Origin: Coralloluteibacterium stylophorae
GTDB lineage: Bacteria > Pseudomonadota > Gammaproteobacteria > Xanthomonadales > Xanthomonadaceae
DNA: 64,000 bases
Direction of reading: 5' to 3'
Assembly (NCBI RefSeq): GCF_018122625.2
Contig: NZ_JAGQFT020000010.1
Span: forward strand, 1-64,000
Position 1 is the stretch's first letter; each line of letters begins with the position of its first letter. A program made the position numbers and the translations under genes. Positions 53,988 to 63,323 of the stretch are shown here, piece by piece. The notes under the pieces are model-generated. The model was not told the DNA's origin and made no database searches. It was given only the letters and a program-made list of their open reading frames with translations.

Positions 53988-54473
53988 ATGCCACGGAAAG
54001 TCTTCTATAGCTTCCACTATCAACGCGACAGTTGGCGCGCTTCCAAGATACGGAATATCGGTGTTGTTGAGGGCAACCAGCCCGCAAGCGATAACAAATG
54101 GGAAGAAGTGAAGCGAGGTGGCGAGGCCGCAATCAAGCGATGGATTGACGATCAACTGCAAGGACGGACGTGCGCAATTGTTCTGGTCGGCGCCGAAACG
54201 GCGAATCGCCCCTGGATTCGATATGAAATTGAGCAGTCATGGAATAGTGGCAAGGGACTCTTGGGAATACGAGTCCATAAGCTGCTGGACCATAACCAGC
54301 AACCATCAGTTGCCGGGGCCAATCCGTTTGACGCATTTACCTTGAACGACGGTAGAAAGCTATCCACCGTCGTCCGCATGTACGATCCACCGGGGGCCAC
54401 CAGCAGCGCGGCCTATAACCACATCAGTGACAACCTATCGGGCTGGATTGAAGCGGCGATCGCTGCTCGCTAA
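53988..54473 (+). CDS. ThsB-like TIR protein (DUF1863)
   Basis: This 161-aa single-domain protein has RKVFYSFHYQRDSWRASKIRNIG, DNKWEEVKRGGEAAIKRWIDDQLQGRTCAIVLVGAETANRPWIRYEIEQSW and LLGIRVHKL, the classic ThsB/DUF1863 TIR-like fold. Trp76 and Glu80 give the W-x3-E pattern. In Thoeris such proteins detect infection and make the signal molecule from NAD+. ACGAAGGA precedes the ATG. Last gene of the operon, convergent with the UDG-like gene 16 bases away. Confidence 0.85.
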   Translation: MPRKVFYSFHYQRDSWRASKIRNIGVVEGNQPASDNKWEEVKRGGEAAIKRWIDDQLQGRTCAIVLVGAETANRPWIRYEIEQSWNSGKGLLGIRVHKLLDHNQQPSVAGANPFDAFTLNDGRKLSTVVRMYDPPGATSSAAYNHISDNLSGWIEAAIAAR

Positions 54474-54489
54474 GCAGCCCAGCCTCTCG

Positions 54490-55152
54490 TCAAAACAGCG
54501 ACCCAGTGCTCATGGGGTGCCCATATAGTTCCGAGATTTGCTTCTGGAACTGGGTCTGTCCTCCGTAGCTAGGATGCCTCACGCAAATCACGGGTACGGA
54601 ATCCGTGATGCGATGAGCCGCAGCGGCGGCATCGTTACCGATGGCGACGATACGCGAGGGGCGTAGCAAGACAATGAGCTGTTGGAGAAGTTCTTCGCCG
54701 GCTCGCCTCTCACGCGCGTTGTGCTGCCGGTTGGTGAAAGGATCTCCTGATTCATGCGGATGCAGAGGGAAAACGTTCCAGAGAAAGATGCGAGCATCAA
54801 TATGTTCCAGCATGCCCCATATGACCGCGGCGGTTCGTTCGGCCACAGCACTGCCTATCGTCGGCCGCTCGGCGACCTGGTCGAGATTCCAACGCCTAGC
54901 GTGCTGGCTTATGTGAACGTCGTCGGTCAGGGCTAACCCAGTGCGGCGTCCTCCGCGGTATCCGAGGTCTCGTCCGATCCATATCGCGTCTACGGGTTCC
55001 TCGGTTGCACGACGCAACATGGCGGACAGTGCAGCGGCACGGCGACGTGGTGCGTCGCGTCTATCATGAACTTCACAACAATCCGAATACGGATTGAAGC
55101 AGTCTTCGAACTGCAGCGAAGCAACTGCATCAACGAACGGGTGGATCTTCAT
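54490..55152 (-). CDS. uracil-DNA-glycosylase-superfamily protein
   Basis: This 220-aa protein has WIGRDLGYRGGRRTGLALTDD, RIFLWNVFPLHPHESGD, LLRPSRIVAIGNDAA and CVRHPSYGGQTQF. The N-x-x-P-L and the C-terminal HPS motif are those of UDG-superfamily enzymes. It may excise modified or uracil bases from invading DNA. It is the last gene of the long minus-strand defence operon and starts in an ATGA overlap with mazG. Confidence 0.75.
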   Translation of the reverse strand: MKIHPFVDAVASLQFEDCFNPYSDCCEVHDRRDAPRRRAAALSAMLRRATEEPVDAIWIGRDLGYRGGRRTGLALTDDVHISQHARRWNLDQVAERPTIGSAVAERTAAVIWGMLEHIDARIFLWNVFPLHPHESGDPFTNRQHNARERRAGEELLQQLIVLLRPSRIVAIGNDAAAAAHRITDSVPVICVRHPSYGGQTQFQKQISELYGHPMSTGSLF

Positions 55153-56285
55153 TTTTCAGACTCAAGTGGCATGTATTTGATGGTGCGTTGTTCTCGGTTT
55201 CCAATGATCCAGCCACCTTGATTTGCCTTGAGCTGGCGAAAGACAGCATAGCCATCCAGGATTGCCTTTTCCCAGAGCTTTAGCGGACATTTCTCCACTT
55301 CGTAACCACTCACGAACTCACCAATGGTCTTGAGAAACCCAAGTGAGACCTTTTCCTGGTTCTCGAAGAAATTCAGCTCCTTGGCCCTGGAGAAAATCCA
55401 CGCTGAAAGCCCTTCCTCCACGACGATGGCCCGACCACTGTCCTGCTCTTCATCGTATTTCGGATTGCTCTTTCGCTTGTGCTTGATCAATGCCCGCATC
55501 ACAGGCGACCAGTGCAGGATTGCGGCATAAGCAAAGTGGAAGACATCATGGAACCGGTAGCCATCGCGATCGGCAATGTTGTCCGTCAGAGGGTCTCCGA
55601 TGAATACACCCTTCCATTGGAGATAACTCTTGCCGCTGCCTCGCTGATTGACCCGGATTTTGAAATCCCTGGGCAGTTGTTCCTCAATTCCAAACTCACT
55701 GTCGAAATCAAGGCCAGCCAGGTCTTCTGCCTGCGGCTCCAAGAATGCGCCGCGAGCTTTCCGGAGATTTCCGCGAGCCACCTCCGAAAACGCAAGCTCG
55801 GCCGCGTGGATTGCATCCAGATAGGCCCGTGCGAAAGCAATCAAGTCTGCACGTGCAGGCGTGCTTCCCAGTAGGGCCGCCGCTGACTGCCCCAAACGCA
55901 CCAAGGTGGCATCCAACGAAGCAGTCACGGCGACGGGCACAGCGATATAGGCTAACGCACCTTCGGTGATGTCACTTGCAGCGCCCACATTCTTAAAGTT
56001 TCCGTGGTTCGCAGCTTCCGCGAAGATCTCTTCAAGAGGAATCTGCAGGCGCCTGCAGATTGCGGCCAAATACCAGAGGGTGTCGCCAAACTCCTCTTCT
56101 GCTGCCTTCTTGAAACCAGGGTAAGCCGTTCTCTCTCGAACATTTTTCTTGGCCGTAGCCATTATTCCGCCGACTTCTCCGTATAGACCTTGGAGGACAG
56201 GGTTGAAGTCATTCGGGTTGAGTACGTCTGTGGCTGCAATTTCCGCAGCGTAATCCGAGAGCAAGAGGGAGCCTTCCTTTTTCAT
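55149..56285 (-). CDS. MazG-like nucleotide pyrophosphohydrolase with extra C-terminal domain
   Basis: This 378-aa protein has an N-terminal MazG fold (GLYGEVGGIMATAKKNVRERTAYPGFKKAAEEEFGDTLWYLAAICRRL, with Glu37, Glu63-65 and Asp68 as the metal site). A helical middle and a conserved C-terminal domain at about 200-378 follow (FHDVFHFAYAAILHWSPVMRALIKHKRKSN, RAIVVEEGLSAWIFSRAKELNFF). MazG proteins hydrolyse (d)NTPs or alarmones, so it may deplete nucleotides or remove modified dNTPs. Overlaps the UDG-like gene. Confidence 0.8.
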   Translation of the reverse strand: MKKEGSLLLSDYAAEIAATDVLNPNDFNPVLQGLYGEVGGIMATAKKNVRERTAYPGFKKAAEEEFGDTLWYLAAICRRLQIPLEEIFAEAANHGNFKNVGAASDITEGALAYIAVPVAVTASLDATLVRLGQSAAALLGSTPARADLIAFARAYLDAIHAAELAFSEVARGNLRKARGAFLEPQAEDLAGLDFDSEFGIEEQLPRDFKIRVNQRGSGKSYLQWKGVFIGDPLTDNIADRDGYRFHDVFHFAYAAILHWSPVMRALIKHKRKSNPKYDEEQDSGRAIVVEEGLSAWIFSRAKELNFFENQEKVSLGFLKTIGEFVSGYEVEKCPLKLWEKAILDGYAVFRQLKANQGGWIIGNREQRTIKYMPLESEK

Positions 56286-56288
56286 CGG

Positions 56289-56915
56289 TCACCTACGAAG
56301 AGTCAGCCATTCGAATGGAGCGCCCTGATAACCGCTCACGTTAAAGCTGCGAATCCATTGCTCAAGGTTCGCAATCAGTTGCGCATCGTCAAAGGTGGTT
56401 AGGCCTCTTCCTGTTTTGCATAGAGGCCGATCTTGCTGGTCCTTCAGTTCCTCGGGAAACTCCGGACCCTCTCCCCCGAAATACACAAAATCATTACTGA
56501 TCAGAACCCTATTGACGCCCGTATCACGGGCGACATGGTCCGGGTTGAGCGTGCCATTGAGGCGGGAGTGAAATGAGTCTCGCTGCTGCCAGGCAGCTCC
56601 AGGCACGGCCCTGAAGTAGATGTTGTCTCCGCAACTTTGCTTCCGACTTCCATTGCGGTACGGCTTCTTGTATTCAAACCGTGGATCTGCGCCGTATTCG
56701 TCAAATGTCATCGCCTCGGTAACGCGCATCGCGTACACGAGACGCCCGCCACGTCGGACAGTTCTATCATTGCTGCCACTGCCGACCACCCAATCACCGA
56801 TGTCAGCGGATCGGCGGATATTGGGTTTGCAGGTCGCAAGCGTGCAGTAGCCATAGAAAGGATTGGGTGCGAAACCACTGTCGTATCGCACCACATAGGA
56901 GTGAATGCGAGCCAT
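56289..56915 (-). CDS. Nmad2-type nucleotide-modification-associated protein
   Basis: This 208-aa protein has ARIHSYVVRYDSGFAPNPFYGYCTLATCKPNIRRSADIGDWVVGSGS, RLVYAMRVTEAMTFDEYG and NRVLISNDFVYFGGEGPEFP, fitting the Nmad2 domain. That domain was defined by its link to DNA-base modification and conflict systems. Its chemistry is unknown. Its start shares one base with the stop of the upstream TIR-like gene (TGATG), and mazG follows 3 bases later. Confidence 0.72.
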   Translation of the reverse strand: MARIHSYVVRYDSGFAPNPFYGYCTLATCKPNIRRSADIGDWVVGSGSNDRTVRRGGRLVYAMRVTEAMTFDEYGADPRFEYKKPYRNGSRKQSCGDNIYFRAVPGAAWQQRDSFHSRLNGTLNPDHVARDTGVNRVLISNDFVYFGGEGPEFPEELKDQQDRPLCKTGRGLTTFDDAQLIANLEQWIRSFNVSGYQGAPFEWLTLRR

Positions 56916-57382
56916 CAGCAGGGATGCCGCATGAGTGGAACCGGGTCGCAGGCGCCGCCGTCAGGCTTTTCCCACGAGTCCTTCCCATTGATCGCGTCAA
57001 TGATTGCATCGCCGTTCCACCCAACCAAGGCGTCGGCATACTCTTTCAGGGCATCCGGGAGGTCGCATTCCTTCTCACCATGCTCCCAAACACCAACAAT
57101 GCGCTTGCCCTGTTTGGCCGCATACTCAATTTCCCAGTTCACCCAGTCGCTGTTCTTGGTCTGGGGGGAGACGTAGCAAATGAACACTCCGGCCCAGTTG
57201 ATCGCAGGGGCAAGGATCTGCGTCTTTATGTAGTGCTCATCGGAAGCATTGTTGAACTTTCCTGTATGGATGGAGGAATCCCTGATTTCCATCCCATTTG
57301 GAGCCAACAGATCCTTGAGCTTTTGGAGCCCGTGATCGTCCTTATGGACATGGCTGATAAACACATTCCTTTTCTCTGTCAC
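56915..57382 (-). CDS. second ThsB-like TIR protein
   Basis: This 155-aa single-domain TIR-like protein has RNVFISHVHKDDHGLQKLKDLL, IKTQILAPAINWAGVFICYVSPQTKNSDWVNWEIEYAAKQGKRIVGVW and DALVGWNGDAIIDAI. Trp80 and Glu84 repeat the W-x3-E pattern of the other two TIR proteins in this island. Its start is inside the ATGA that ends res, so its translation is tied to the restriction subunit. Confidence 0.82.
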   Translation of the reverse strand: MTEKRNVFISHVHKDDHGLQKLKDLLAPNGMEIRDSSIHTGKFNNASDEHYIKTQILAPAINWAGVFICYVSPQTKNSDWVNWEIEYAAKQGKRIVGVWEHGEKECDLPDALKEYADALVGWNGDAIIDAINGKDSWEKPDGGACDPVPLMRHPC

Positions 57383-60300
57383 CTGTCACCTCCAAGGTTT
57401 TCATATGATCTGAAGATCGCAGCCGATTCAGCCAAAAGGTCGATGACAGAACGCTCGACCACGTAGCGTGCCGGATTCTCGCCAACCGCCAGCGCCTCAA
57501 AATGCGCCTCGCCACAGGCGATTTTTGCGCGCTCCTTGTTGCGCAGGTCGTCAGTGAACAGGCTGCCCTTGGTCTCCACCACGAAGTAAAGACGCTGCGC
57601 GCCGTCTTCCTCCACCAGCACGGCCCAGTCGGGGTTGTAGCTGCCCAGTGGCGTGGGCACCTTGAACCAGCCGGGCAGCTTGGCGTAGAGCTTAATGGCG
57701 TCGTTCTTCTCAAGCGCATCGGCAAAGTCGCGCTCGGTTGTCGAGTCATAGACCACGTGCTCGTAGATGGACTTTTCAGTGTCCATCAGCATGTCCTTGA
57801 GATAGCCGGTCAGCTCCTCCTGATCGAACAGTTCCTGGGCATAGAAATGTTCGTCGCCCAGCTTTTGGTACTTGATGCCATCCACCAGCGCCAGGCGCTT
57901 GCAGCGGTTGATGGTCTCGGCGGTCAGCTCGATGAACTGCTGCGGGTTGCGCTTGAAGTCGTCCAGCCGCCCGCTGCCGCTCAGGATGGTGGCGATGCTC
58001 CGGCGGGTGAGTTGGGTGCGATCCTGGAGGTCGGTGAGCAGGTCCGGCAGCTCGACGTCCGTCTCGTCCAGGACGACAGTTGCCGCGCCCGCTTTCTCCG
58101 TGGCCTCCACCCCTGCCTTGCCGATGGCGATGTCGGCCTTGCGCCATTGCAGCCGGGCCTTGGGGATGGCCGGGGCTTGTCGAAGCGAATCGATGCAGTT
58201 CTGGATCAGCTTGTCATTATCGAACTGCACCCGATAGGTCGTCTTGTGCTTGATGCGATCCCACAGCTCCTTGAACTCGGGGCTGAGATAGACGCCCTTG
58301 CGCACGGCAACCTGCTTGCGCTCGTCGGCGTTCTTGATTTCCAGACGGCCCGACACCTTGCGCAGCACCTCGGCGATTTGACTGCGCTGCGCGTCGAACT
58401 CCGCAGGTAGCGCCAGGGTTCCATCCTTTAACGCCGTCTTCAGCGAGTCCTGCACCTTGCCCTTGGCGTCGATGTGTCCCGCAGCCTTCAAGTGCTCCCA
58501 TAGCACCTTCGACTGTTCGACACCCAGGGGCACGGTTTGGCCATCGGCCGCCGTCACGGCGATAGCAGCGAACTGGTGTTGCTCGACGATGCCAAAGCGG
58601 ATGCCGGTGTCGGCCTCTATCTCCTTCTGCAGGTTCTCGGCGAACTGCTCGTAGTTCTCGGTGGCGATCACGGTCAGGGTGTTGACCTCGAAGCCCCGCA
58701 CACGCTCACCGTGCTGATTCACGCACAAACGCAATCCGCGGCCGATGGTCTGACGACGTTCGCGCTCGGTCTGAATGTCGCGCAGGGTGCAAATCTGGAA
58801 GACGTTGGGGTTGTCCCAGCCTTCCTTCAGGGCCGAATGGGAGAAAATGAACTTGAGCGATGTGTCGAAGGACAGCAGCTTTTCCTTCTCCTTCATGATC
58901 AGGTTGTAGGCGCGCTCGGCATTCTCGCGGTTGCCCGCATTGTTCTCTGCGGTATCTGTCCAGCCACCTTTCTTGTCGATGGAGAAGTAGCCGTTGTGTA
59001 CTTCCTCTGCAGCGGAGTCCAGGTCGATCTCGGCGAAGAGGCTCTGGTAGGCCGGCAGCTTGGCGGCACGCCGATACTCCTTTTCAAAGATGCGGGCGTA
59101 GTCACCTTTGACCGTATTGCCGTCCGCGTCGTACTGGCGGTACCTGTCCACCGCATCGATGAAAAAAAGCGATAGAACCTTGATACCCAGCGGCCGCAGG
59201 CGCTTTTCCTTGTCCAGATGCTCGCGAATCGTGCGACGGATCATTTCGCGTTGCACGGCCAGCGCATCCACGTCACCGTGGGCTTGGCCCGGCTTCAAGA
59301 AAACTTCTCCACCGGGGTAACGCAGCTCCATGAACTCGTCGCCCCTGGCCGTGTTGATCTCGCCGACGCGAAAATCGGCATAGATCGGACGCTTGGCAAG
59401 CTGCTCCAGGTCGTCACCATCGGATACGACGAGCTCCTGCCGCTTCACACCGCTGGCGGTGGCCACATCCAGTTCGACCCTGGCACTGATGGTCCCGCGC
59501 TTGTTGGCCACCGATATCAACCGCACGAAGGGTTTGTTGTGCGCATCCTCCACCGTCGCCGAGGCCACCTCGATCTGTTTGACCAGTTTTCGCTCGTAGG
59601 CATCGACTGCGTCGAGGCGAAATACCATGTGGTGCTTGTCCACATGGGTCGCGGAATATCGCAGGGTGCAGAGTGGATTCATCGCATCCAGAGCCTCTTT
59701 GCCGCGCCCCTCGAGGCCACCATCCACACTCTGGGGTTCGTCCACGATGACGATGGGCCGGGTCGCCTTGATCAGGTCGATGGGCTTCTCTCCGCCGGTC
59801 TTCTCGCTGTCCTTGTAGAGGTTGTTGACGTCCTTCTTGTTGATGGCGCCCACTGTCACCACCATGACTTGGATGTTCGAGCTGGTGGCAAAGTTGCGCA
59901 CCTGCCCGAGCTTGTTGGAGTCGTAGAGGAAGTAGTCGAAGGGCACCCCGGCGTAGAGTCCCTTGAAGTGGTCTTCGGTGATCTGCAGGGTCTTGTAGAC
60001 GCCTTCCTTGATCGCGACCGACGGCACCACGATGACGAACTTGGTGAAGCCGTAGCGCTTGTTCAGCTCGAAGATCGTGCGCAGGTAGACGTAGGTCTTG
60101 CCGGTGCCGGTTTCCATTTCCACGGTGAAGTCGCCGGAAGTCAGCGCGCCGGAGGGCGGCAGGCCACCACGCAACTGGATGTCCGCCAGATTCCTGAGAA
60201 GCTCGTCGTCAAGCAGGGTCAGTCGGTTGCCAACGCCCAGATCCGACTCGGCCATGCCCAGCGTCATTTGCTCAGGCTGGGTCCCGGGAAACAGGTCCGA

Positions 60301-60432
60301 TCCCACCGGCATCGGCGCCTTCATCGTCACCGTGAACTCGGTGCGGCACACCTCCTGGCCACGGAACAGGTCGCACACGGCCGCAATGGCCTGCATCTGG
60401 TAGTCGAGGTTGGGCTCGAAGTGAAGTTTCAT
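57379..60432 (-). CDS. res: type III restriction enzyme Res subunit
   Basis: This 1017-aa SF2 helicase-endonuclease has Walker A METGTGKT at 106-113, the DExx box DEPQ at 231-234 and motif VI QTIGRGLRL from 561. A C-terminal PD-(D/E)XK nuclease has Asp935 (NPDWAVL) and Glu953/Lys955 (VETKG). The start is the ATG before KLHFEPNLDYQMQAI, with AGGGAGGT 6 bases upstream. With Mod it cleaves DNA lacking methylation after ATP-driven translocation or switching. Its stop is coupled to a TIR-like gene. Confidence 0.92.
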   Translation of the reverse strand: MKLHFEPNLDYQMQAIAAVCDLFRGQEVCRTEFTVTMKAPMPVGSDLFPGTQPEQMTLGMAESDLGVGNRLTLLDDELLRNLADIQLRGGLPPSGALTSGDFTVEMETGTGKTYVYLRTIFELNKRYGFTKFVIVVPSVAIKEGVYKTLQITEDHFKGLYAGVPFDYFLYDSNKLGQVRNFATSSNIQVMVVTVGAINKKDVNNLYKDSEKTGGEKPIDLIKATRPIVIVDEPQSVDGGLEGRGKEALDAMNPLCTLRYSATHVDKHHMVFRLDAVDAYERKLVKQIEVASATVEDAHNKPFVRLISVANKRGTISARVELDVATASGVKRQELVVSDGDDLEQLAKRPIYADFRVGEINTARGDEFMELRYPGGEVFLKPGQAHGDVDALAVQREMIRRTIREHLDKEKRLRPLGIKVLSLFFIDAVDRYRQYDADGNTVKGDYARIFEKEYRRAAKLPAYQSLFAEIDLDSAAEEVHNGYFSIDKKGGWTDTAENNAGNRENAERAYNLIMKEKEKLLSFDTSLKFIFSHSALKEGWDNPNVFQICTLRDIQTERERRQTIGRGLRLCVNQHGERVRGFEVNTLTVIATENYEQFAENLQKEIEADTGIRFGIVEQHQFAAIAVTAADGQTVPLGVEQSKVLWEHLKAAGHIDAKGKVQDSLKTALKDGTLALPAEFDAQRSQIAEVLRKVSGRLEIKNADERKQVAVRKGVYLSPEFKELWDRIKHKTTYRVQFDNDKLIQNCIDSLRQAPAIPKARLQWRKADIAIGKAGVEATEKAGAATVVLDETDVELPDLLTDLQDRTQLTRRSIATILSGSGRLDDFKRNPQQFIELTAETINRCKRLALVDGIKYQKLGDEHFYAQELFDQEELTGYLKDMLMDTEKSIYEHVVYDSTTERDFADALEKNDAIKLYAKLPGWFKVPTPLGSYNPDWAVLVEEDGAQRLYFVVETKGSLFTDDLRNKERAKIACGEAHFEALAVGENPARYVVERSVIDLLAESAAIFRSYENLGGDR

Positions 60433-60578
60433 GGCGTACCTCCCTGTACGCCACCCTGCGGGCAGCCTTCGGCTGTGCAAAACGGCTGTCCTGCCGTTTT
60501 GTCATGCGTACCTCCCTGTACGCCACCCTGCGGGCGCACTGGCGCGCGTGCAAATTCCCTATCCTGATAATTTGTCAT
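60429..60578 (-). CDS. 49-aa mini-ORF between mod and res
   Basis: The small open frame encodes MTNYQDREFARAPVRPQGGV and ends PQGGVQGGTP. The peptide motif PQGGVQGGT occurs twice because the DNA is a tandem repeat. It starts 11 bases after mod and its TGA overlaps the res start codon (ATGA), exactly as a translational-coupling leader would. Whether the peptide itself acts is unknown. Confidence 0.45.
   Translation of the reverse strand: MTNYQDREFARAPVRPQGGVQGGTHDKTAGQPFCTAEGCPQGGVQGGTP
60433..60578 (-). repeat. two tandem 73-base start-codon/Shine-Dalgarno units
   Basis: Units 60506-60578 and 60433-60505 (minus strand) both begin ATGACAAA, share TTTGCAC, and end with the same 29-base block containing CAGGGAGGTACGC. 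Each unit therefore carries an ATG and ends with a strong Shine-Dalgarno for the ATG that follows. Since 73 is not a multiple of three, copy-number change would shift frame. Confidence 0.85.
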
Positions 60579-60588
60579 AGCGGCACCA

Positions 60589-62508
60589 TCACAGACTGCG
60601 CACGTTCTGGATGCCGTGCTGCTCCAGAATGGCGGCGAGGTTGGTCTTGGCGACATCGTTTTCAAAGGCGCTGTCGCGGAACACGCAGGTCGTGTCACCG
60701 GCGGGCGCCAGTTCCTTGTGCCAGTCGATGATGCCTTGGGCCAGCGGCTCCACCTGCTTAGCCGTAATCCGCTCGGCAAGGCAGGCCATCAGCACGCCGC
60801 CACCCACGGAATGCACCTCACGGCTCGCGATGGTGCGCTGCTCGATGGGCACGCACAGGTCGAGGCCGAGCTTGAGCAACAGCTCAAATAGCAAGTCGGC
60901 CTCCGAGCGACCTTCGAGCAAATGATCTTGGTGGTCGAACAACGAGGCTTCCAGATCCGCCGGGTTGGGGTTCCAGGCGCGGATATTGGAGTGGTCCAGC
61001 TTGAAGACGCGGAAGCCGATATCGCCGGTAAACAGCGGGTTGTCGGCTTTGATCTTGGTTGCGGCGCGGCGCAGGCGTTCTTTGGTGAGTTCGGCGATGT
61101 TGCGGGGCTTGCCGAGTTGATCGCAGAACTCGGCGGCGGCCTTCTGCTCTTTGGTTTCGGGGTCAAGCGGCTCGGGAAGCTGGACCAGCACATATGAGCG
61201 CTGCCCGCCATCGACGGCATTCTGAGCCATCACGGAGTGCCCACTGGTACCCGAGCCTGCAAAGAAGTCGAGGACGATTGCGTCCGATCCGCTACCTATC
61301 GCTGCAATGGTTTTAAGAAGTTTCGTCGGCTTCGGGTTGCTGAAGTATTCGCCACCCATCAAATCTCGAACTTCGGTGCTGCCGGTCCGGGTGCGCCCGA
61401 ACCGCTCATCAACCAGTAGCGAGCGCGGCTTTCCGCCGGGTTTCTCGTAATTCTTGGTGTATACATGTCCGTCCTTGAAAACAAGCGAATCCATATTGTT
61501 CTTGACCTTGTCCTTTGACCAACGCCAGATGGCATTGGGTCGCGTTTGATCACGGTGCTCCAACTTGTAAATCGTTCCATCAGGTCCAACAAGGTCGTAG
61601 TCCATCGAGCTGGAATACTGCAAATTTTGCTTATCAAGGCGCTCCAGCGAGTAGCGACCGTGTTCGTCCTCGTTGTTGTATGTCGTGGTTGCAACTGCAT
61701 CAGGGTCAAGGCCGACGATGTTGTCAGTCCTCTCGCGCGAGAAACAAACGACATATTCATGATCGACGGCCACTTCACCGCTGTCGTTCGCACCACCAGA
61801 CTTGCTTTTCCAGATGAATGACGCAATGTGGTTTTCTTCACCAAAGACTTCGCTACAGGCCTTGATCAGATTGTCGATTTCTTTATCGTCGATCGAAATG
61901 AAGATCACGCCATCTTTGCGAAGAAGATTTCGCGCCAGCTTCAAGCGCGGATACATCATATTGAGCCAGTCCGTGTGAAAGCGCCCCGACGCTTCGGTGT
62001 TCGAACTGATCTTGCGCCCGCCCTCCACCTGCCCGGTCAGTTCCAAATAGTTCTTGATGTTGTCCTGGAAGTTGTCCGGGTACACAAAGTCCTTGCCGGT
62101 GTTATAGGGCGGGTCGATATAGATGAGCTTGACCTTGCCGACATAGCTTTTTTGCAGCAGCTTGAGCACTTCGAGGTTGTCGCCCTCGATCATCAGGTTC
62201 TGAGTGGTGTCCCAATCCACGCTCTCGTCCGGACAGGGGCGCAGAGTGCCGGTACTCGGTGTCAGCGCCAATTGCCGGGCGCGGCGCTTGCCGTGCCAGT
62301 TGAGTCCGTATTTCTCGTCGGCATCGGTGACGGTCTGGTCACCCACCAGCGCCTTGAGCACATCCACATTCACCGCCGTGCCGTTCGGGCCTTCAGTAAT
62401 GAGCTCCGGGAATAGGGCCTTGAGCTGGTCGATGTTGCCCGCCACCAGATCGGTGGACTGGGCCAGGTGGCTTGCGGCGTCGATGATCTGCATCTGCTTC
62501 TCCATCAT
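60589..62508 (-). CDS. mod: type III adenine methyltransferase Mod
   Basis: This 639-aa beta-class N6-adenine methyltransferase has motif IV DPPYNTG at 132-138 and the SAM motif DFFAGSGTS from 414. The intervening ~280 residues include the variable target-recognition region (about 220-370). It methylates one strand of an asymmetric site and confers specificity on Res. The ATG at 62508 (MMEKQM) was chosen. The ATG at 62496 has a better Shine-Dalgarno and is possible. Confidence 0.92.
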   Translation of the reverse strand: MMEKQMQIIDAASHLAQSTDLVAGNIDQLKALFPELITEGPNGTAVNVDVLKALVGDQTVTDADEKYGLNWHGKRRARQLALTPSTGTLRPCPDESVDWDTTQNLMIEGDNLEVLKLLQKSYVGKVKLIYIDPPYNTGKDFVYPDNFQDNIKNYLELTGQVEGGRKISSNTEASGRFHTDWLNMMYPRLKLARNLLRKDGVIFISIDDKEIDNLIKACSEVFGEENHIASFIWKSKSGGANDSGEVAVDHEYVVCFSRERTDNIVGLDPDAVATTTYNNEDEHGRYSLERLDKQNLQYSSSMDYDLVGPDGTIYKLEHRDQTRPNAIWRWSKDKVKNNMDSLVFKDGHVYTKNYEKPGGKPRSLLVDERFGRTRTGSTEVRDLMGGEYFSNPKPTKLLKTIAAIGSGSDAIVLDFFAGSGTSGHSVMAQNAVDGGQRSYVLVQLPEPLDPETKEQKAAAEFCDQLGKPRNIAELTKERLRRAATKIKADNPLFTGDIGFRVFKLDHSNIRAWNPNPADLEASLFDHQDHLLEGRSEADLLFELLLKLGLDLCVPIEQRTIASREVHSVGGGVLMACLAERITAKQVEPLAQGIIDWHKELAPAGDTTCVFRDSAFENDVAKTNLAAILEQHGIQNVRSL

Positions 62509-62519
62509 TTGTTCGATCT

Positions 62520-63323
62520 TCAAAGCTGTTCGCGTGCTGCAGCCAGTTGGACCAGCACGCGCTTGAGCGCGAGGTTCAGTTCCACCTGCCGCGCCAGTTG
62601 TTTTTCTTTGGCCGCCAGCGTGCGCAAACGGGTCGCCTCGGTTTCCAACCGCGCGCATTCCTGCAGAGCATGGCGACGGATTGCGGCCTGCTCGGGGCCG
62701 TCGGCCGCTTTGAACATCCCGGTCAGCTTCGCCGCCAACAGCGCCTGCGCGCTATCCATCCACCCCTGATACAAGGCGAAAAGTGAGGATCGTGGCTGGC
62801 GAGTCAAGGCGATGGCCTGAACAAATGCGTTCAACGCGTCGAGAGACGGCGCGTCCTCGGGCAACGACATGGACACCATGTCGCTATCCAGCACCACTTT
62901 GCTCGCTTCGTTCTGTGCCCAGCGCTTATGTGCCAAAGAGAGCGTCATGCTCTGTCCGGAGTACAGCAGCAACAGCACCGGATAGGGGACCGCACGGTGC
63001 ACCAGTTCGGCGAGGCGGGCGGCGTTCGCTGGCCTGATTTTGTCTTGCGCGGGCTGGCTTCGCAGCGTCACAGCAAGCACCGCGACCTCTAGATACTCGC
63101 GCAACTCGTCGCGGTAGTCAGGCACGCCGACGGTGTTCGGCTTGAGCGCCGCGACCCACTGTATCTCCTCGACGGTATTGGCGATCAGTCGCTTGTCGGC
63201 AGCCGTGGGGGCTCCGTTCTCCAGCAGCAGCTTCTTCGGCACGCGCTGATCGACTCGGCAGCCGTCGGGCAGACCAAGCGAGGCGATGAATCCTGGTACG
63301 TCCAGCAGCATGGTTCGCGTCAC
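62520..63323 (-). CDS. DUF4391 protein of the restriction operon
   Basis: This 267-aa protein has LPDGCRVDQRVPKKLLLENGAPTAADKRLIANTVEEIQWVAALKPNTVGV and YLEVAVLAVTLRSQP, the DUF4391 pattern, and a coiled C-terminus (RLETEATRLRTLAAKEKQLARQVELNLALKRVL). DUF4391 genes commonly sit before mod in type III-like systems, and their function is unknown. It is coupled to the S8 gene upstream by ATGA and ends 11 bases before mod. Confidence 0.78.
   Translation of the reverse strand: MTRTMLLDVPGFIASLGLPDGCRVDQRVPKKLLLENGAPTAADKRLIANTVEEIQWVAALKPNTVGVPDYRDELREYLEVAVLAVTLRSQPAQDKIRPANAARLAELVHRAVPYPVLLLLYSGQSMTLSLAHKRWAQNEASKVVLDSDMVSMSLPEDAPSLDALNAFVQAIALTRQPRSSLFALYQGWMDSAQALLAAKLTGMFKAADGPEQAAIRRHALQECARLETEATRLRTLAAKEKQLARQVELNLALKRVLVQLAAAREQL

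Follow-up and report, generated by a model that had tools for sequence, protein, structure and literature searches.

Between the methyltransferase and nuclease genes of a type III restriction-modification system in Coralloluteibacterium stylophorae lie two tandem 73-nt units, and the question they raise is whether such a repeat, placed immediately ahead of a nuclease gene, acts as a switch or has another role in the translation of that gene. An earlier note on the 64,000-nt stretch of DNA that was analysed (hereafter, the window) proposed that gain or loss of a unit shifts the frame coupling res to mod and so changes the dosage of Res relative to Mod, as a safety or phase-variation device. The features of the locus, all on the minus strand, are the following.

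60589..62658, minus strand: mod, N6_N4 methylase of the type III restriction-modification system (open reading frame; PF01555, E = 2e-32; stop codon TGA at 60591-60589)
60506..60578, minus strand: unit 1 of the element, 73 nt (covariance model R1, E = 9.6e-19; sequence; empty-site comparison)
60433..60505, minus strand: unit 2 of the element, 73 nt (R1, E = 5.7e-23; sequence)
60429..60578, minus strand: 49-codon mini-ORF starting in unit 1 (terminated by the TGA at 60431-60429, which forms ATGA with the res start codon)
60478..60501, minus strand: hairpin 1 of unit 2, CAAAACGGC AGGACA GCCGTTTTG (predicted folds; covariation)
60463..60475, minus strand: hairpin 2 of unit 2, CAGCC GAA GGCTG (predicted folds; covariation)
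60433..60452, minus strand: hairpin 3 of unit 2, GGCGTAC AGGGAG GTACGCC, with the Shine-Dalgarno in the loop (predicted folds; covariation)
60439..60445, minus strand: Shine-Dalgarno AGGGAGG of unit 2, 6 nt upstream of the res ATG (sequence)
60506..60524, minus strand: third hairpin of unit 1, which likewise contains an AGGGAGG, at 60517-60511 (sequence; predicted fold)
57379..60432, minus strand: res, type III restriction nuclease (PF19778, PF04851, PF00270; the start matches that of the relatives)

Read in the direction of transcription, 10 nt separate the mod TGA from unit 1, after which come unit 2 and the res ATG (60432-60430), and unit 1 begins at the position equivalent to the res start of relatives. 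The anatomy described in the earlier note was confirmed throughout: two tandem units (60578-60506 and 60505-60433) with an ATG and a Shine-Dalgarno each, both starting with ATGACAAA and both carrying AGGGAGG, and hence the GGGAGG of that note, shortly before the following ATG; a frame that runs from unit 1 into the res ATG; and a second unit that feeds the res start. By Tandem Repeats Finder score (183), the array ranks first among the 52 rows in the window (runner-up, 66), and GCGTACAGGGAGGTACGC occurs exactly twice, against 0.05 occurrences expected from shuffles. The last 30 nt (3') of the two units are essentially identical, and the first 43 nt match at just 25 positions in an ungapped comparison, so that the units are not simple copies of each other and do not represent a fresh duplication; their hairpin stems are altered on both sides. 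The RNA of the array folds better than shuffled sequence (z = −3.2), and in the predicted fold the pairing of hairpin 3 of unit 2 can extend into the res AUG. Given that 73 is 1 mod 3, arrays of one, two and three such units have lengths of 1, 2 and 0 mod 3, respectively. These two units are the sole copies of the element in the C. stylophorae genome, and a search of plasmid and phage records with a 261-nt query yielded no similar DNA. The surroundings include, beside the type III system, a series of defence-like genes at 53988-57382, among them two for ThsB-like TIR proteins, as well as Nmad2, MazG_C and UDG-family genes, and a DUF4391 gene is present at 62520-63323.

Comparison with relatives of Res provides the empty site. 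Matches to the Res protein were found in 23 of the 297 genomes of the family, and 21 junctions were viewed besides that of the window (L044, which has a C-terminal fragment of Res only, is not among them). At the mod-res junctions of the two closest relatives, with Res proteins 77-78% identical, there is no unit; one of them, L025, has its res ATG 10 nt past the mod stop, which is the spacing of the ATG of unit 1 in the window. In L042 (G013), a distant Res relative, the upstream gene and res are separated by a single 74-nt unit, which is in frame alone. Among the 21 junctions, no closely related one with a different number of units was found, the genus of the window being represented by this one genome, and covariance model R1 detected no element in six Res relatives.

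Both units belong to a family of three-hairpin elements with strong covariation. In the alignment of 33 seed elements (A1), RNAalifold identified 15 consensus pairs in three hairpins, 10 of which are changed on both sides, while GACAAA, CAGGA, TGCAC and, in the third loop, GGA are near-invariant against the varying stems; the length of the element is mostly 71-77 nt. Model R1 detected the element in 165 of the 297 family genomes (E = 1e-3), in 42 of 54 genera, and, across the class, in 101 of 274 genomes (E = 1e-5); copy numbers per genome are lower bounds, at most 16 to 18 candidates having been scored in each. When a degenerate pattern with one mismatch allowed was applied to 368 other bacterial genomes, two further ones matched, along with ten viral contigs, two of these by chance and the rest with the whole element, mostly between genes; additional pattern scans yielded more loci. 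Excluded from the set were L054 and L057, as chance matches in coding sequence, and L067, L069, L072-L074, L081, L083-L086 and L092, which lack the downstream hairpins. In Mariprofundus ferrooxydans PV-1, two copies (L071 and L087) occupy two adjacent boundaries of one probable prophage, the DNA of which is also present in viral contigs L091 and L093. A duplication specific to the mod-res junction is ruled out by the presence of the unit at unrelated genes. A known Rfam RNA is likewise ruled out: Rfam gave no match to the element for the window, for L058 or, at the gathering level, for 14 loci, and the matches obtained were tRNA, rRNA and chance snoRNA only. A search of the open-access literature found no earlier description of an element of this kind in proteobacteria.

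When the positions of 136 arrays were classified (the best-scoring loci, not a random sample, with only sense-strand neighbours considered), 40 were located at gene boundaries, had xTGA on either side and were followed by a long frame, and 96 lay elsewhere; 11 of the 175 rows had been omitted, namely 5 duplicate contigs (L065, L091 twice, L093 twice) and 6 weak or partial matches. Comparison of filled and empty sites places the insertion after GA, which is part of ATGA at gene boundaries, and the right end of boundary copies is (A/G)TGA; thus, the right end supplies a start codon. Among the 96 non-boundary arrays, 43 start at TCGA, typically in sequence resembling the T arm of tRNA (GGTTCGA..ATCCC), and 27 start at GAGA, typically within another repeat. 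Coupling is therefore not the sole setting of the element. The TCGA copies, for example those of L104, L120, L123, L135, L137, L290 and many more, are found in the context GGTTCGA, element, ATCCC...CTCTCCGCCA, which is similar to a tRNA T arm with the acceptor end, and are often near tRNA or 5S genes; another set of copies, in L105, L108, L109, L115, L118, L121, L122, L139 and L162, is nested after GGGAGA in a repeat of the form CCTTCTCCC..GGGAGA..GGATGAGGG. The dispersal of the copies, together with the empty sites, suggests that the element is mobile.

At gene boundaries, a simple frame rule was observed, whereby the mini-ORF that begins with the ATG or GTG at the left end terminates precisely at the following start, as ATGA or GTGA. 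This was the case in 35 of the 40 boundary arrays; two more, L112 and L119, form relays of 71-nt units, each ending on the ATGA of the following unit. The frame is broken in two of the 40 (L058 and L106, both single 73-nt units), and L126, with a TTG start, was not scored for frame. With the ftsL-ftsI loci set aside, 23 of 28 boundary arrays are in frame, compared to 37 of 95 non-boundary single units with a length of 2 mod 3 (Fisher p = 5e-5), and among boundary single units only, 19 of 21 are in frame (p = 1e-5); these p values are too small because the same phage boundary recurs in related contigs (L050, L056, L059, L064). In L163, two units of 70 nt (140 nt in total) are singly out of frame and jointly in frame, and the same holds for the 73 + 73 = 146 nt of the window. 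L163 and L119 apparently represent one boundary, with 70 + 70 nt in the former and relays of 71 + 71 nt in the latter, as if two one-base losses had compensated each other. In L100 (G042:C14), seven tandem units, six of 69 nt and one of 71 nt, precede one gene; at what appears to be the homologous boundary in L147, there are two units.

The case for coupling, and against a frame switch, is strongest at the ftsL-ftsI boundary of genus g18, where the frame is constant. FtsI was matched in all 35 genomes of this genus and the ftsL junction was resolved in 34 (that of L215/G667 lies at a contig edge). The inserts are of 16 different lengths, from 56 to 359 nt, corresponding, as judged by length, to one unit in 14 genomes, two in 8, three in 10, four in 1 and five in 1. 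All 34 arrays are 2 mod 3 in length and free of stops, even those that are shortened or altered (56, 59, 83 and 86 nt). GGAGG is retained in 29 of 34 last units compared to 10 of 35 interior units, although the units of related species are not independent. Of the 46 ftsL-ftsI loci in other genera, 37 were resolved: 36 of these have no insert, the two genes overlapping as ATGA or GTGA, and the remaining one (L236) has two units. L236 was also the only one of the 46 in which R1 found a match. The g18 array is thus identified by comparison as an insertion, in which the number of units changes and the coupling frame is held. These observations divide the prediction of the earlier note. The arithmetic of a frame shift upon unit gain or loss holds for 73 + 73, and unit number does vary among relatives at ftsL-ftsI; arrays at that boundary nevertheless keep 2 mod 3 at every number, and at mod-res no close junction offers another unit number for comparison.

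Taken together, these findings make it likely that the window contains two adjacent copies of an apparently mobile three-hairpin element which, inserted at the ATGA of res, keep res coupled to mod. Membership in the family, the insertion site, the frame and the hairpins can all be read from the aligned sequences; the path of the ribosome from mod through the mini-ORF to res is what we infer from them. An insertion into the ATGA at which res begins would have left the old start at the left end of the element, as the start of the mini-ORF, and the right end would contribute the Shine-Dalgarno, in a hairpin loop, together with a new ATG(A). Ribosomes leaving mod would initiate at the old site, translate the 49-codon mini-ORF across both units, unfold hairpin 3, terminate at the TGA within the res ATGA and reinitiate on res. 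The insert would thus leave the coupling of res to mod intact. The predicted fold has the Shine-Dalgarno loop itself unpaired but the res AUG mostly paired (0.57-0.76), so that the chief effect of coupling would be to release the start codon. That the units are coupled to the translation of res, as claimed in the earlier note, is well supported by the anatomy of the junction and by comparison with other loci.

Several other readings were weighed against this one. The third hairpin could make the element a CsrA/RsmA-type cassette, its ANGGA hexaloop overlapping the Shine-Dalgarno such that insertion puts the downstream gene under Csr control. The loop and its flanks resemble the CsrA/RsmE binding consensus, which makes this a candidate site by resemblance, and the GGA of the loop is retained despite variation of the stem, also outside gene boundaries, where a Shine-Dalgarno role is impossible. 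A transposition protein may, however, equally read the conserved loop, and we regard Csr control as unlikely.

The element might also be a passive, REP-like insert, the site being merely tolerated and res being translated from the ribosome site of unit 2 without coupling. The strong AGGGAGG at good spacing is compatible with this reading, as is the position of the majority of the classified copies outside gene boundaries, and, since the predicted fold leaves the Shine-Dalgarno loop open, ribosome loading might not require coupling. However, indifference to frame is very unlikely at ftsL-ftsI, where arrays of 16 lengths are all 2 mod 3, and unlikely generally, which leaves passive insertion with a small probability.

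The switch envisaged in the earlier note, in which slippage adds or drops units and the change of frame alters Res relative to Mod, appears very improbable. Two 73-nt units are in frame, whereas a single unit would lose the frame and three would result in fusion to res, and unit number does vary at other boundaries. Phase variation is nonetheless disfavoured, and a coupling-preserving mobile element favoured, because wherever unit number varies the frame is held (34 of 34). Moreover, the units of the window differ at 18 of the first 43 positions, which makes them poor substrates for frequent slippage, and the same cassette lies upstream of non-toxic genes. A device specific to res is thus unsupported, the element also preceding ftsI, phage genes and many others. 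That the mini-ORF encodes a functional small peptide is hardly credible: the frame is open in 34 of 34 resolved ftsL-ftsI arrays, but the residues are dictated by a DNA motif that is kept also in non-boundary copies, the sequences diverge widely among loci, and, among 16 distinct last units of g18, single-base codon differences show only a weak excess of silent ones in frame (silent to changing, 179:298, against 118:309 and 117:330 in the shifted frames).

A coupling-preserving mobile element of this kind would carry the MIRU principle, in which a mobile repeat restores the start codon that it has interrupted, beyond mycobacteria to an element that is very common in Gammaproteobacteria and phages, and would add conserved RNA structure to it. 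The ftsL-ftsI arrays would be a natural, frame-constrained set with which to measure how strict the cellular requirement for translational coupling is, and the locus cautions that tandem repeats ahead of a toxic gene need not mean a switch. A broader proposal, to which we give little credence in its entirety, is that of a large and so far undescribed family of structured mobile elements in Gammaproteobacteria and their phages, each bringing along a ribosome site and a start codon, inserting after GA, repairing the interrupted gene and multiplying in place under frame constraint even in a cell-division operon, in which the ANGGA loop adds control by a host RNA-binding protein, e.g. CsrA.

Among known systems, REP/RAYT sequences are, like the present element, short palindromic repeats dispersed in bacterial genomes, and their ends often provide the stop codon of flanking ORFs (PMC3733652). 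The present element differs in its three hairpins and in the frame-keeping mini-ORF between genes, and no GTAG-type tag at the foot of the hairpin is seen in alignment A1, which starts with GACAAA. An origin from REP/RAYT was rejected, no Y1 transposase being found beside units; at the 18 Y1 transposase loci surveyed in 12 genomes, with short flanks of up to 1.5 kb, there was no convincing R1 match (best E = 0.038). Rickettsia palindromic elements, described in PMC10969869 as selfish palindromes with an ORF compatible with the host reading frame, differ in being about 150 bp long and fused in frame inside genes, with no new start codon between genes. Termination-reinitiation at ATGA overlaps, the ribosomal mechanism proposed here, is treated in PMC12548453 (see also PMC6728339); elsewhere it is a property of gene pairs, whereas here it would be carried by a dispersed element.

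The closest likeness is to the mycobacterial MIRU, which, as described in a review (PMC12548453), is apparently mobile, inserts at start codons and carries an ORF that is coupled, at a spacing of −4 nt, to the gene targeted. Between senX3 and regX3, tandem MIRU units of 77 and 53 bp differ between strains (PMC4213456), and since both lengths are 2 mod 3, the units named there follow the same length rule as the present element. The present element shares with MIRUs its dispersal as a short repeat, here across a family, a class and phages; insertion at a start codon or DTGA overlap (40 boundary arrays, the empty site being seen for both mod-res and ftsL-ftsI); an ORF with a 4-nt overlap with the adjacent gene (exact in 35 of 40); and tandem copies of variable number, about 1-5 at ftsL-ftsI and 7 in L100. 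The differences are that it has three covarying hairpins with the Shine-Dalgarno in a hairpin loop, whereas MIRUs reportedly (Supply 1997) have no obvious dyad symmetry, and that it occurs in another phylum, in hosts that include phages, and is common outside gene boundaries too. On the features described, we therefore file the element as a structured gammaproteobacterial and phage variant of this kind, MIRU-like and not a MIRU.
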